Part shown: positions 21,216 through 31,007 of the stretch, piece by piece
Layout: every line of letters begins with the position of its first letter
How positions within the stretch are numbered: position 1 is the stretch's first letter
NCBI GenBank assembly: GCA_024275315.1
Contig: JAJRZK010000017.1
Coordinates: 1 to 64,000 of the forward strand
DNA length: 64,000 bases
Direction of reading: 5' to 3'
Origin: Nitrospirota bacterium
GTDB lineage: Bacteria; Nitrospinota_A; UBA7883
The notes under the pieces: model-generated
The model's database searches: none
What the model saw: only the letters and a program-made list of their open reading frames with translations
What the model was told of the DNA's origin: nothing
Program-made: the position numbers and the translations under genes

Positions 21216-24104
21216 TTGTCGCTTGACGGTTTTCAAGAAATTCTGGACACGATTTCAGAAGCAACTTCCATCGTATCATCATTAACCCCTGACCTTTCCG
21301 ACAAGAAAAGCATCTCCGACGTTATGCTTGCGCTTGAAAAAATCACCCCTGAAATAGGCAAAGGCCTTACCGGGAAAATGGCTGGCCTTTGCGAGTTGCT
21401 GGCGCAACTGTACGAAAAGTTCCTTATGGAAATGGTTGACGACGGCTCCGTCGGGATCGAGATGACTCTCCAGGGTTTGTCAGTTCTACAAGAGTCGATC
21501 GAGGAATCCTCGAGCCAGGAGACCCTGGACGAAAAGACCGTAATGATATCGACCAGCCTGTTCACGGCTTATGGTGTTTCTGTGGCAGGACTTGAGACAG
21601 GACAAACCACAGACTCACAAGAGAAGCCCGATGATACTCTCGCTCAAGCCGGGACAGGCGATGGTGAAAACCCCGAACCCGAGGACGCGGTGGACGAGGA
21701 TGATGATTTTTTCGCGGGGATCGAAACCGGCATGGGTTCTGAAAACGCCGGGTATGGAACCGTGGAGGAGCATGAAGAAGAGACCGAACCTGTAAACCCG
21801 ATAGTCGAAAAACTGAGCCAGCTCGCCAACGATGTCACCATGCTCGACGCGGATATGACCGATAAAAAAGTGGTGTCGGACATTATGCTGGAGCTCGAAG
21901 AGATCACGACAGACATGAATAACGAAGGGTGTGACCCCCAAGTGACATCCCTTACAAGCACGCTCGGTCTTTTGTATGAAAAAAGCCTGATGAAAGGGCT
22001 GGAAAACGGTCAAAAAGCCATTGACTTAAGCGCCGATGCGATTATGATCCTTTCCGCCTACTTTGAGCAAACCCACTCCCAGGACCTTCCGGTGCAAGCG
22101 ATACAAGTCAAAAAAAGGATTGAAAATGAATTCGGGCTCGCAGCTGGTGATGAGTCCCACGAATCGCGGGAACCTGACGATAAAGCTCCGCCTGCCGCAG
22201 AATCCCCCCAGGAGCCGGATAACGCCCAGGGTATGGTCACAGAAGCCGGCTATGACACGGTAAAAGTAGCCTCTGACGAGGACCTTCTCATTTACTGTGA
22301 ATTTGTCCTGGAGGTTAACGATTCGGTCGCAGGCATAGAATCGGACCTGCTGGAGCTTGAAGAGAGCCCGACAAACGAGGAGTTGATAAACAGCACTTTC
22401 AGGGCTTTTCACAGCATGAAAGGCGCCGCCGGTTTTCTTGGCGTAAACACCGTGAACATCTTATGTCACGAGGCGGAGACCCTTCTGGACAAATTCCGCA
22501 AGAAAATACTGGTCTGCAACCAGGAAATGATGGACGCGCTGCTCAAGACGGTGGATGTGATCAAGCTTGTCAACGAAGGGCTGGACGCCGGGTGCCAGGG
22601 GATCAAAGCTAAGCTGCCAAACGCAGACCTGGAGATGCCTAAGTTTCATATCGATTCACTGGTGCAATTGCTGACCAGGCTCGGGTCGGAGGAGCAGACA
22701 AAGGTAGTGGAACAGGATGTAGAAAAGGCTGATGCCGAGGAAGAGGAAAGTGGTGACGAGGAAATTGAGCCCATAGGCGCGATGCTTGTAAATGAGCAAA
22801 AAATATCCCGGGACCAGCTTGAGACGGCTCTGGAATCTCAGCAGGCGAAACCGTTGGGCGAGATTCTCGTGGATATGGGAGCCATAGAAAAAAGCGAGGT
22901 TGAACAAGCCCTGAAATACCAGGCCGAGAAGAAAAAGAAAGTACAGGCTTCATCAATCAAGATTGACACTGAAAAGCTGGACAGCCTGCTTGAGCTGGTG
23001 GGCGAGCTTGTAATCTCCCAGTCCATTGTCGGGCAGGACGAGGCCCTTGCCAGTGAGAACAACCGGGTTCTTCTTAAAAACATTACAAACCTCGGGAAGA
23101 TTACCAAAAATATTCAGGACCGCGTGATGACCCTGCGCATGGTCCCGTTGAAGCAGACGTTTCAAAAAATGAACCGGCTGGTGCGCGATCTGGCAAAGAA
23201 AATGAAAAAACCTGTGCATTTCAACATTTCAGGGGCGGACACGGAAATCGATAAGACACTAATCGAAGAGTTGAACGATCCTCTGGTTCATTTATTGAGA
23301 AATTCCATGGATCATGGCCTGGAATCCGCCGAAGAGCGTGTGGCCAAAGGGAAGGACAAAACAGGCAACGTATGGTTATCGGCTTCTCACAAGGGCGGAA
23401 ACGTCCAGATAGAGGTGATAGATGATGGAAAAGGTTTGGACCGGGATAGGATCAAACAAAAGGCGATTGAAAAGGGCTTGATACCCGCCGATGCGGAGTT
23501 ATCGGAGCAGGAGCTGTACAGCCTGATATTACAGCCCGGTTTTTCCACACACGATGTGGCGACCGACATTTCGGGAAGGGGTGTCGGTATGGACGTGGTG
23601 AAATCCAACCTGGACAAGTTGGGAGGGCGCCTGGAAATAACAAGCAAGCCGGGCGAAGGCTCCACTTTCATGATCAAGCTCCCTCTGACTCTCGCCATTG
23701 TAGACGGCATGATAGTCCGCATCGGAAAGGACAGGTATGTTATTCCCACCATATCTATACGAGAGTCGGTACGCCCATCCAAGGATTCGATTTCGACGTA
23801 TAAAAAGAAGGGCGAAATGATCGATGTACGGGGCCACCTGCTTCCAATGGTCAGGCTCCACAGGCGTCTGGGTATAATGGATGCGATTCATGAAAATCCA
23901 TGGGAGGGCATCGTAATAATCGTGGAATCCGATGGCAGGGAGTTCGGGTTTCTCGTTGATGATCTGCTCGGTCAGCAGCAAGTTGTTATCAAGAGTCTTG
24001 ACAAACGTTTCAAGGGGCTTCCAGGCATATCCGGAGGCACTATACTGGGAGACGGCTGTGTAGGATTGATCCTGGATGTAAGCAGTGTCGCGGCGTCCAA
24101 TTAG
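21216..24104 (+). CDS. cheA: CheA-type histidine kinase 1 with duplicated N-terminal domain and MshEN-like linker
   Basis: This 962-residue protein is an unusually long CheA. Residues 5-105 and 195-307 are two related helical domains resembling Hpt bundles but lacking the His. The true Hpt is at about 355-460, with phospho-acceptor His399 in FHSMKGAAG. Residues 519-567 hold two LG-x2-L...L-x3-L-x2-Q repeats like the c-di-GMP-binding MshEN motif. The dimerization domain (about 583-650) and the HATPase follow (N box LLRNSMDHG, DDGKGLD, GRGVGMDVV), then a CheW-like domain from about 827. The TTG start has TGGAG upstream. It leads the chemosensory operon. Confidence 0.93.
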   Translation: MSLDGFQEILDTISEATSIVSSLTPDLSDKKSISDVMLALEKITPEIGKGLTGKMAGLCELLAQLYEKFLMEMVDDGSVGIEMTLQGLSVLQESIEESSSQETLDEKTVMISTSLFTAYGVSVAGLETGQTTDSQEKPDDTLAQAGTGDGENPEPEDAVDEDDDFFAGIETGMGSENAGYGTVEEHEEETEPVNPIVEKLSQLANDVTMLDADMTDKKVVSDIMLELEEITTDMNNEGCDPQVTSLTSTLGLLYEKSLMKGLENGQKAIDLSADAIMILSAYFEQTHSQDLPVQAIQVKKRIENEFGLAAGDESHESREPDDKAPPAAESPQEPDNAQGMVTEAGYDTVKVASDEDLLIYCEFVLEVNDSVAGIESDLLELEESPTNEELINSTFRAFHSMKGAAGFLGVNTVNILCHEAETLLDKFRKKILVCNQEMMDALLKTVDVIKLVNEGLDAGCQGIKAKLPNADLEMPKFHIDSLVQLLTRLGSEEQTKVVEQDVEKADAEEEESGDEEIEPIGAMLVNEQKISRDQLETALESQQAKPLGEILVDMGAIEKSEVEQALKYQAEKKKKVQASSIKIDTEKLDSLLELVGELVISQSIVGQDEALASENNRVLLKNITNLGKITKNIQDRVMTLRMVPLKQTFQKMNRLVRDLAKKMKKPVHFNISGADTEIDKTLIEELNDPLVHLLRNSMDHGLESAEERVAKGKDKTGNVWLSASHKGGNVQIEVIDDGKGLDRDRIKQKAIEKGLIPADAELSEQELYSLILQPGFSTHDVATDISGRGVGMDVVKSNLDKLGGRLEITSKPGEGSTFMIKLPLTLAIVDGMIVRIGKDRYVIPTISIRESVRPSKDSISTYKKKGEMIDVRGHLLPMVRLHRRLGIMDAIHENPWEGIVIIVESDGREFGFLVDDLLGQQQVVIKSLDKRFKGLPGISGGTILGDGCVGLILDVSSVAASN

Positions 24105-26610: not shown

Positions 26611-28620
26611 ATGGAAGAAATAGACCGCGAAATCCTCGTTGAGTTCATCAAGGAGACCATTGAGGAGCTTGATGGGCTCGACGCGAAGTTTATAGAGCTG
26701 GAGAACAACCCCAGCGACTCTGAGACCATAAACGCCATATTTCGAACGATGCACTCGATCAAGGGGTCCGCTTCGTTTTTCAACCTGAACCACATACGCA
26801 ACTTTTCCCATAAACTGGAAAATCTCCTGGACGAGCTTCGCAAAGGCGCCAGGAAAGTGACCAAGGACATTATCAACATCCTCCTGGAAGGGAAGGATTA
26901 TCTGGATGGAATGTTTGATCGCCTCGTCAACGGCGACATGGGCGTGGAGTTGTTTGAAAACGAAACTTCGCTTCTTGAAAAGGTGGACGGTATTCTTGCA
27001 ACCGAGGAGGAAAAGGAAGAAGTCAAGCCACACCATCTTTTTCATGAGTTGGACAAGATGCGCCATGACCTAGACGCCGAGGAAGTGATCAACAAGCCTT
27101 CTGTCGCCGGCATGCTCGAAATAATTGAGCGGCTACGTGAAGTCGTGCTGGGCCCTGAAGCTAAAGGGGAAAAAGACGCTCCCCCACTTGGCCAGCTTCT
27201 CGTGGAAGAAGGCGTGGTCACCTCGGATGATGTTTCCAACGCGCTTTCAAAACAGAAGAGGATAGGCGAAATTCTCATAGAGGAAGGCAAGGCCACCCCG
27301 GACGCCATAGCCAGGGCCGCCCAATTACAGGAAAAACAAAACAAGGAAATAAGCGAAGCCAAACGCGCCAAACCTGTGCCATCCTCTGCGGTAATGGGGA
27401 TCAAGAAGTCGATGAGAATAGAGGAGGAAAAGATCGACAACTTCATGGACGCCGTGGGTGAGCTGATAATAAACGCCGAAGTCTTCAACTATCTGCAGAA
27501 AAAACTTGAAACAGGACATGAAATTGAAAAGCTGGTGGCAGAGTTCAAGAACGCCAGCGTGGATTTTAGCGAGCTTATTTTCAACCTCCAGAAGGGATTG
27601 GCCGAGGTTCGCAAGGTTTCACTCAAGGGCATTTTTCAGAAAGTGCCTCGAATGGTCCGCGACCTGGCGGAAAAGATCGGCAAGGAGGTGGACGTGCAGG
27701 TGTCCGGCGAAGAGTTGCTTGTGGATAAAAGTCTTTATGAGCAGCTTGAAAGCCCACTGAACCATATCATAAGAAACGCCATAGACCATGGCGTCGAGCT
27801 ACCTGATGACCGCAAGGCCTCGGGGAAAAATCCCACCGGCAAAATCATTGTGTCGGCGGAGGAGGTTTCCGGAGATTTCGTCATCAGCATAATCGACGAC
27901 GGCAAGGGCATGGACGCGGAGACTCTCAAAGCAAAAGCTTTGGAAAAAGGTATAATCACTCCCCAGATGGCGGAGGTAATGTCAGACAAGGAAGCCTACA
28001 AGCTTATATTCGCTCCCGGTTTTTCCACCGCCGAGAAAGTAACCGATGTATCGGGCCGCGGCGTGGGAATGGATGTCGTCATGACAGCGTTAAAGGAGAT
28101 CAAGGGCAAAATCGACATCAACACGGAAGTTGGCAGAGGCACGGAGCTAATGATCTCCGTCCCCATGTCCACAACCTTGATAACCATATCCGGTCTCGTG
28201 GTGGCTGTCGGCAAGGAGCATTACATCGTCCCGATGGAATGGGTGCGAGAATCGATCAAACCCAGCCGGGAGCAAATAACCTCTGTCAAGCATCAGGGAG
28301 ACATTATCCAGATCAGGGAGCAAATCTACCCCCTGTTCAAGCTGTTTGAAGTGTTCGGTATCGTTCCTGCCAGCAAGGAGCCATGGGAGTCCGTGGTCAT
28401 GGTGATTGAAAAGGAAGATCAACAATGTTGCCTTGTGGTGGATGAAATTATCGAAGAGACACAAGTGGTATTAAAAGACCTGGGGGATATATTCAGCGGA
28501 ATTCCCGGCATTCTCGGCGGGGCCATTCTGGGTGACGGGAAGATCGGCCTTGTGATAAACATAGAAGGCATTTTAAATTCGATGAAAAATCGCTTTAACA
28601 CCATAAATCAAGAGGGTTGA
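26611..28620 (+). CDS. cheA: CheA-type histidine kinase 2 with MshEN-like linker
   Basis: This 669-residue CheA has an N-terminal Hpt (1-105) with His48 in MHSIKGSASF. Residues 192-240 carry two MshEN-like repeats (PLGQLLVEEGVVT... and RIGEILIEEGKAT...). The dimerization domain is near 265-330, and the HATPase has IIRNAIDHG, DDGKGMD and GRGVGMDVV. A CheW-like domain forms the C-terminus from about 510. Unlike CheA1 it lacks the duplicated N-terminal domains. It follows regulator 2 by 3 nt. Two distinct full CheA kinases in one operon suggest branched or cross-phosphorylating signalling. Confidence 0.94.
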   Translation: MEEIDREILVEFIKETIEELDGLDAKFIELENNPSDSETINAIFRTMHSIKGSASFFNLNHIRNFSHKLENLLDELRKGARKVTKDIINILLEGKDYLDGMFDRLVNGDMGVELFENETSLLEKVDGILATEEEKEEVKPHHLFHELDKMRHDLDAEEVINKPSVAGMLEIIERLREVVLGPEAKGEKDAPPLGQLLVEEGVVTSDDVSNALSKQKRIGEILIEEGKATPDAIARAAQLQEKQNKEISEAKRAKPVPSSAVMGIKKSMRIEEEKIDNFMDAVGELIINAEVFNYLQKKLETGHEIEKLVAEFKNASVDFSELIFNLQKGLAEVRKVSLKGIFQKVPRMVRDLAEKIGKEVDVQVSGEELLVDKSLYEQLESPLNHIIRNAIDHGVELPDDRKASGKNPTGKIIVSAEEVSGDFVISIIDDGKGMDAETLKAKALEKGIITPQMAEVMSDKEAYKLIFAPGFSTAEKVTDVSGRGVGMDVVMTALKEIKGKIDINTEVGRGTELMISVPMSTTLITISGLVVAVGKEHYIVPMEWVRESIKPSREQITSVKHQGDIIQIREQIYPLFKLFEVFGIVPASKEPWESVVMVIEKEDQQCCLVVDEIIEETQVVLKDLGDIFSGIPGILGGAILGDGKIGLVINIEGILNSMKNRFNTINQEG

Positions 28621-28623
28621 CCT

Positions 28624-30628
<2,005 letters not shown>

Positions 30629-30632
30629 TCCG

Positions 30633-31007
30633 ATGGATAAAAACGCGGGCGACAAAGCCAGGCGTAAATGCGCAAGGGTCGGGTTCGAAACCACCATCAG
30701 CCTGGAAGTTGGAGATAAAACATACAATTATGACCGCACTTACGACGTCAGCATGAACGGGATATTCGTCTCCACCGCCCAGCCTCTCGACCTTGGCGTT
30801 ACGGCCAGGTTTGTGATGAAACTTGCCGTGGGAATGAGAAACGAAGAGATCAAGGGGTCGTGTCTTGTCGTTCGAACCATCTCTTTTGATGACGGGCTTT
30901 CCGGAGAAACTCCAGGTCCCGGCATGGCGTTGAAATTTACTGACCTGGATGACGACTCCGGCGCCATGCTCTACCAGATTATTCGCCACAACCAGCCCGT
31001 TGAATAA
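30633..31007 (+). CDS. PilZ-domain protein at the end of the chemosensory operon
   Basis: This 124-residue single PilZ domain has RKCAR near residue 12 and DVSMNGIFV near residue 37, which together give the c-di-GMP signature R-x3-R...D-x-S-x2-G. The ATG at 30633 lies 4 nt after the cheB stop, so it belongs to the operon. With the MshEN-like linkers in both CheA proteins it makes a second possible point where c-di-GMP meets this pathway. The output target is not evident; flagellar motor braking or type IV pilus control are the usual options. Confidence 0.85.
   Translation: MDKNAGDKARRKCARVGFETTISLEVGDKTYNYDRTYDVSMNGIFVSTAQPLDLGVTARFVMKLAVGMRNEEIKGSCLVVRTISFDDGLSGETPGPGMALKFTDLDDDSGAMLYQIIRHNQPVE

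Follow-up and report, generated by a model that had tools for sequence, protein, structure and literature searches.

Among the closest described systems is the MshEN domain of MshE from V. cholerae (5HTL), in which two 24-residue units, both with Gly3 and Gln24, are joined by a five-residue spacer into a 53-residue domain that folds as a four-helix bundle. According to the accessible text of Wang et al. 2016 (PMC5013675), MshEN_N binds c-di-GMP alone and MshEN_C is not needed for binding, the spacer residues between the units are non-conserved, and the L58A substitution causes a tenfold loss of affinity with biofilm formation still supported. One sentence of that text states that MshEN occurs combined with CheA, the same domain combination as the one described here, and within that text no CheA is tested. 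The MshEN-CheA fusion is already known in outline (Wang et al. 2016), and the motif itself is catalogued as NF053729. Our literature searches, with most subscription papers outside their reach, found no functional test of an MshEN-type CheA.

The GSPII-B and GSPII-C domains of Thermus thermophilus PilF share this fold in the context of an ATPase, and the available parts of two papers report that both bind c-di-GMP (PMC12002112), that one motif of the binder GSPII-C has Pro at position 1 and that the GSPII-B motifs have Lys or Leu there (PMC11731258). In GSPII-A the fold is kept without binding and a role as a landing pad is proposed; an N-terminal extension of helix alpha1 helps to block it, and in derivatives of this domain Leu to Ile changes at matching positions had little effect and Gly3 mattered (same parts of PMC12002112). 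The complex of the PilB N-terminal domain with PilZ from Xanthomonas citri (7LKM) contains an MshEN-like bundle that lacks the c-di-GMP motif residues and is linked to PilZ. Elsewhere c-di-GMP has been connected with chemotaxis, in the accessible text of the reports, through a PilZ-domain chemoreceptor (PMC6454048), through CheY-like proteins (PMC5677366) and through an adaptor acting on a methyltransferase.

The window, which is the whole 64,000-nucleotide stretch of DNA that was analysed, contains a chemotaxis operon in the order cheA1-cheY-cheW-cheR-cheY-cheA2-hpt/cheW-cheB-pilZ. Four relatives from the same order were compared, and three of them keep this arrangement; in L192, the remaining one, all operon genes were matched except CheW, none being listed at that place. 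CheA2 (26611-28620, forward strand, as are all features located below) has 669 residues with Hpt at 7-106, H-kinase_dim at 266-329, HATPase at 380-519 and CheW at 528-657. CheA1 (21216-24104) has 962 residues with Hpt at 363-447, H-kinase_dim at 579-639, HATPase at 688-825 and CheW at 831-959, and in both proteins the four domains each score above the Pfam cut-offs. At its N-terminus (residues 1-345, 21216-22250) CheA1 has a domain of about 120 residues, helical in appearance, in duplicate; the two copies are 29% identical (E 3e-15) and belong to no Pfam family at cut-off. In enteric CheA a P2 domain sits between P1 and P3. Pfam P2 (PF07194) has no match between P1 and P3 in CheA1 or CheA2, and the sole P2 match of the genome is in another frame of CheA size.

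The gene after cheA2 (28624-29583) encodes an Hpt-CheW protein, consisting of P1 to P5 without the kinase core, which is possibly an extra phosphate acceptor for CheA1 and CheA2. It is kept in all six of the related cheA2-carrying regions that were examined (L192-L195, L198 and L199). A sequence-only reading of the window had ended the operon in a PilZ gene, and this is borne out by the canonical RKCAR and DVSMNG motifs of the last gene (30633-31007), whose start was set at 30633 because a longer reading overlaps cheB. RxxxR and DxSxxG are found in this PilZ protein and in those of the four order relatives; two regions of family f6, from the same class as the window, keep the operon core and the element and gave no match to the PilZ protein. 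The genome itself has 15 GGDEF matches and a FliG.

The same reading had placed a tandem MshEN-like element at 27184-27330, between P1 and the dimerisation domain. Translation and the Pfam borders agree: the segment reads PLGQLLVEEGVVTSDDVSNALSKQ-K-RIGEILIEEGKATPDAIARAAQLQ, residues 192-240 of CheA2, and comprises two tandem 24-residue units between Hpt and H-kinase_dim. Unit 1 (PLGQLLVEEGVVTSDDVSNALSKQ, residues 192-215, 27184-27255) covers predicted helices alpha1 and alpha2, a single residue, Lys216 (27256-27258), forms the spacer, whose shortness the sequence-only reading had passed over, and unit 2 (RIGEILIEEGKATPDAIARAAQLQ, residues 217-240, 27259-27330) covers predicted helices alpha3 and alpha4. 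Unit 1 had been said to match all consensus positions; it has Pro rather than Arg at position 1, Val17 and Leu21, and what holds is its compatibility with the relaxed motif as published. The consensus Arg that had been noted at the start of unit 2 is there; this unit also has Lys at position 11, Ile17 and Ala21, and it falls outside the relaxed motif because of Lys11. CheA1 was said to carry a copy as well, and its own pair of units is found at residues 519-569 (22770-22922), separated by a three-residue spacer. Both proteins have the tandem pattern of core positions, which none of 20,000 shuffles of each reproduced; for the published relaxed single motif, the shuffles with a match numbered 17 and 18 of 20,000 for the two CheAs.

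NCBIfam model NF053729, a cyclic di-GMP-binding domain related to MshE, spans the two units and has a curated cut-off of 38 bits; CheA2 scores 47.8 bits and CheA1 51.6 bits. By sequence, the elements of both proteins belong to this catalogued domain. In a scan of the whole genome NF053729 matched 17 stretches and split CheA2 into two half matches, which fits its missing spacer residues. A profile built from nine CheA2 elements found PilF, PilB and MshE chains as its top 14 matches among PDB sequences (E 4.5e-24 to 0.054), followed by a chain at 0.2; the best stretch was residues 335-387 of PilF, within GSPII-C. At E-values up to 1, the MshEN family of Pfam (PF05157) matches neither CheA1 nor CheA2. 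This silence is uninformative because PF05157 covers only the MshEN_C half, as seen in the PilB-like protein L002 of the same genome, where its match follows the two units, at residues 81-163. Surveys using PF05157 would miss receptors of the CheA type. Weak Pfam matches to DUF4388 were obtained in the CheAs (E 0.04-0.09), and weak DUF4388 matches also occur on the ATPase units.

CheA2 residues 104-293 were modelled with AlphaFold2 together with 20 relatives (model residue n is CheA2 n+103), with moderate confidence (mean pLDDT 71.7, pTM 0.33). The model has helices at 90-97, 102-110, 115-121 and 127-150, corresponding to alpha1-alpha4 of the element, and alpha1 begins at position 2, without an N-terminal extension. 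The ten best Foldseek matches in the PDB were all MshE or PilF GSPII structures, with rmsd of 0.9 to 2.0 Å and probabilities of 0.99-1.00, no E-value being below 0.001. With VIA-align, model residues 87-140 superposed on residues 7-64 of c-di-GMP-bound MshE (5HTL) over 54 residues (Z 9.2, rmsd 1.5 Å), the first unrelated chain being a fumarase (Z 5.0); the CheA1 model (residue n is CheA1 n+499) gave 0.9 Å in Foldseek and Z 10.9 with rmsd 1.9 Å over 57 residues in VIA-align, and Z values of 8 to 11 carry limited weight alone for small helical bundles, the sequence profiles here agreeing with them. An MshEN_N-type four-helix bundle is a well-supported prediction for CheA2, and the MshEN-like identity proposed from the DNA is upheld by NF053729, by the PDB profile search and by the predicted fold. 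In the CheA1 model alpha4 is continuous with the first P3 helix, the two making up one helix (model 60-106), with pLDDT of about 61-68 at the junction. With both CheA models, a resemblance of the bundle to the fumarase C-terminal domain was seen (VIA Z 4.7-6.2).

The CheA2 element shares with MshE the two 24-residue units, the four-helix bundle (predicted for CheA2) and Gly3 and Gln24 in both units. It differs from MshE in lacking MshEN_C, in Pro1 of unit 1 and Ala21 of unit 2, and in its histidine kinase host. Between their units the aligned stretches of PilF are four residues longer than CheA2, and GSPII-C resembles CheA2 in having a motif that starts with Pro. The spacer is five residues in MshE, one in CheA2 and three in CheA1, and we file the CheA elements as a short-spacer variant of the MshEN/NF053729 domain because the spacer residues are described as non-conserved and NF053729 still accepts the CheAs. 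To this earlier knowledge the present analysis adds where in CheA the element sits, that its spacer length is free and that MshEN_C and P2 are missing, together with a test of its conservation and the differences between lineages in its site.

Conservation was examined in the order of the window, where 12 genomes were searched and 11 gave CheA2 matches. Ten complete orthologues, including that of the window, were obtained, without selection for the motif, as was also the case for the CheA1 set; an eleventh (L018) is truncated and was left out. Both units are kept in nine of the ten, the exception being L017, from a 73% complete genome, which is without the element; L017 and L018 were dropped prior to the identity figures and residue counts. 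Among the nine CheA2 sequences the pairwise identity of the element, without gaps, is 53.2%, compared with 35.8% for the linker before it and 28.3% for the linker after it (P1 71.9%, P3 78.4%). Free drift of the linker among orthologues, which had been named as the observation that would speak against the element, was not seen. A single Lys makes up the spacer in each of the nine CheA2 sequences, and the spacers of CheA1-type proteins range from 1 to 4 residues. Neither Gly3 nor Gln24 varies in either unit of the nine CheA2 sequences or of the 11 CheA1 or third-type sequences, and the mean entropy of non-contact positions in the two sets is 1.6-1.9 bits.

Position 21 of unit 2 is the counterpart of Leu58 in MshE. 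It is Ala, Gly or Thr in seven of nine CheA2 sequences and Leu in 11 of 11 CheA1-type sequences. CheA2 is therefore expected to bind c-di-GMP more weakly than CheA1, and may do so because this pocket Leu is lost.

Matches covering the fused module were found well beyond the order, in counts that lean towards sequences with Gly3 and Gln24, since such sequences were the ones used to construct model A4 and the unit scoring matrix. The phylum of the window gave 44 match rows from 24 genomes, of which 39, in 20 of the 24 genomes, cover the element and five begin behind its start, at model position at least 35. In the phylum of the uncultured deltaproteobacterium L044 there were 59 rows in 45 of 99 genomes, all starting at model positions 2-5; 30 sequences were fetched (L137 was not scored) and 29 have two units, with spacers of 1-2 or 5-8 residues in 28 and of 10 in one. 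Residue counts leave out L137 and L104, in which the CheA pattern yielded no frame, as well as L110, which has a single unit at a contig end. The phylum of Nitrospirae bacterium Glo_13 has 34 rows covering the module in 23 of 61 genomes. The phylum of Paraglaciecola (G033) was considered as a clean negative control and ruled out, since 28 of its 100 genomes have matches over the full length (29 rows, spanning model positions 2-3 to 132-134); its remaining rows are P3-only or element-only. When 20 of 63 rows were inspected by eye, 14 from the Paraglaciecola phylum and six from that of Glo_13, all 20 had two units, poorly so in L219.

The putative ligand site differs between lineages. In family f6, all eight members counted, of both CheA types (L103, L105-L109, L111 and L121), have Lys or Arg in place of Gln24 of unit 1 and keep Gln24 of unit 2. 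Eight of the 14 CheAs inspected from the Paraglaciecola phylum (L202, L204, L205, L207, L208, L209, L211 and L213) lack positions 22-24 of unit 1, so that this unit is without its Gln and unit 2 adjoins almost directly. These two lineages suggest that the fold can persist with an altered site; by sequence, the fused module is widespread and its site is altered in some lineages. ATPases were also compared: those of the genome itself have spacers of 4-6 in the unit scan, and of the 27 best-scoring ATPases of the phylum 26 had no scored unit pair, so that the spacer comparison gave little.

We consider it somewhat probable that the element provides CheA with a built-in c-di-GMP input, the binding and its effect on the kinase being the inferred parts. 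A self-standing MshEN_N-type bundle would be inserted between P1 and P3, at the place of P2, and would most likely bind one c-di-GMP molecule between its two units. Binding could change how rigid the bundle is, or where it lies with respect to P1 and the dimer helices of P3, with a change in the access of P1 to P4 or in the seating of the P3 helices. Autophosphorylation or phosphotransfer of CheA would then be raised or lowered, the direction being equally conjectural, and CheA1, encoded in the same operon, has a second and better preserved copy. The NF053729 scores, the PDB profile search, the fold, the invariant Gly3 and Gln24, the PilF precedents for Pro, Lys or Leu at position 1, the binding by MshEN_N alone, the lack in the model of an alpha1 extension like that of GSPII-A, the GGDEF matches and the PilZ gene all point to this reading. 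Against it stand the spacer of one residue compared with five, the change at position 21 of unit 2, the one orthologue without the element, the altered sites of f6 and of eight of the 14 CheAs inspected from the Paraglaciecola phylum, the non-binding GSPII-A and the moderate confidence of the model.

Several of these points would suit a bundle that binds no nucleotide and whose role is that of a rigid spacer or of a P2 substitute with CheY, CheB or some other protein as its docking partner. The element stands at the place of P2 and neither CheA has a Pfam P2 domain, GSPII-A of PilF keeps the fold without binding and may be a landing pad, unit 2 of CheA2 lacks Leu21, and the ends of unit 1 are altered in f6 and in many CheAs of the Paraglaciecola phylum. 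This explanation is weakened because a docking surface would not predict Gly3 and Gln24 in particular, and these ligand-contact residues are less variable than the remaining non-core positions, being constant in the 9 and 11 sequences of the order; we regard it as rather unlikely, with a chance that still deserves attention. Docking of the operon's PilZ protein on the element, suggested by the PilB-PilZ complex, was considered as a separate candidate and lowered, since the PilZ-binding surface of 7LKM is on ND1, which corresponds to MshEN_C and is missing from the CheAs, and since the f6 regions keep the element without a PilZ match.

The MshEN pocket might instead hold another nucleotide or small ligand, and the altered Gua2 side (position 21) together with the short spacer could change its specificity. 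We think this improbable: no MshEN-type domain with a different physiological ligand was met in the literature consulted, the genome encodes c-di-GMP enzymes, and a second receptor of c-di-GMP type, PilZ, closes the operon. A chance likeness of a helical linker to the motif, which the looseness of the motif, the commonness of helical linkers and the silence of Pfam MshEN might suggest, is already refuted by the absence of the tandem pattern from the shuffles, by NF053729 scores above cut-off, by conservation in nine of ten orthologues and by the restriction of PF05157 to MshEN_C, and we give it hardly any probability.

If the element does bind c-di-GMP, chemotaxis may read this messenger directly, and a receptor inside CheA would let the sessile or motile signal enter at the first enzymatic step. 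Since the module is present in several phyla, a positive result for one CheA would be informative about many others. A broader and more tentative proposal, to which we give slightly less than an even chance, is that several phyla built a c-di-GMP receptor into CheA in replacement of P2, as a compact MshEN_N variant with a free spacer whose alpha4, in the modelled CheA1 type, continues into the P3 dimer helix, and that c-di-GMP would set kinase output there without an adaptor.

Tandem units are also found in other proteins of the same genome. Two short frames, C22:2126-2452 and C10:48703-49188 (250 and 222 residues), contain several NF053729 stretches beside parts of no recognised kind. The first 250 residues of L005 (contig C24), a T2SSE-type ATPase, contain more tandem units than the usual two, and Pfam FumaraseC_C matches this protein with an E-value of 0.00025.
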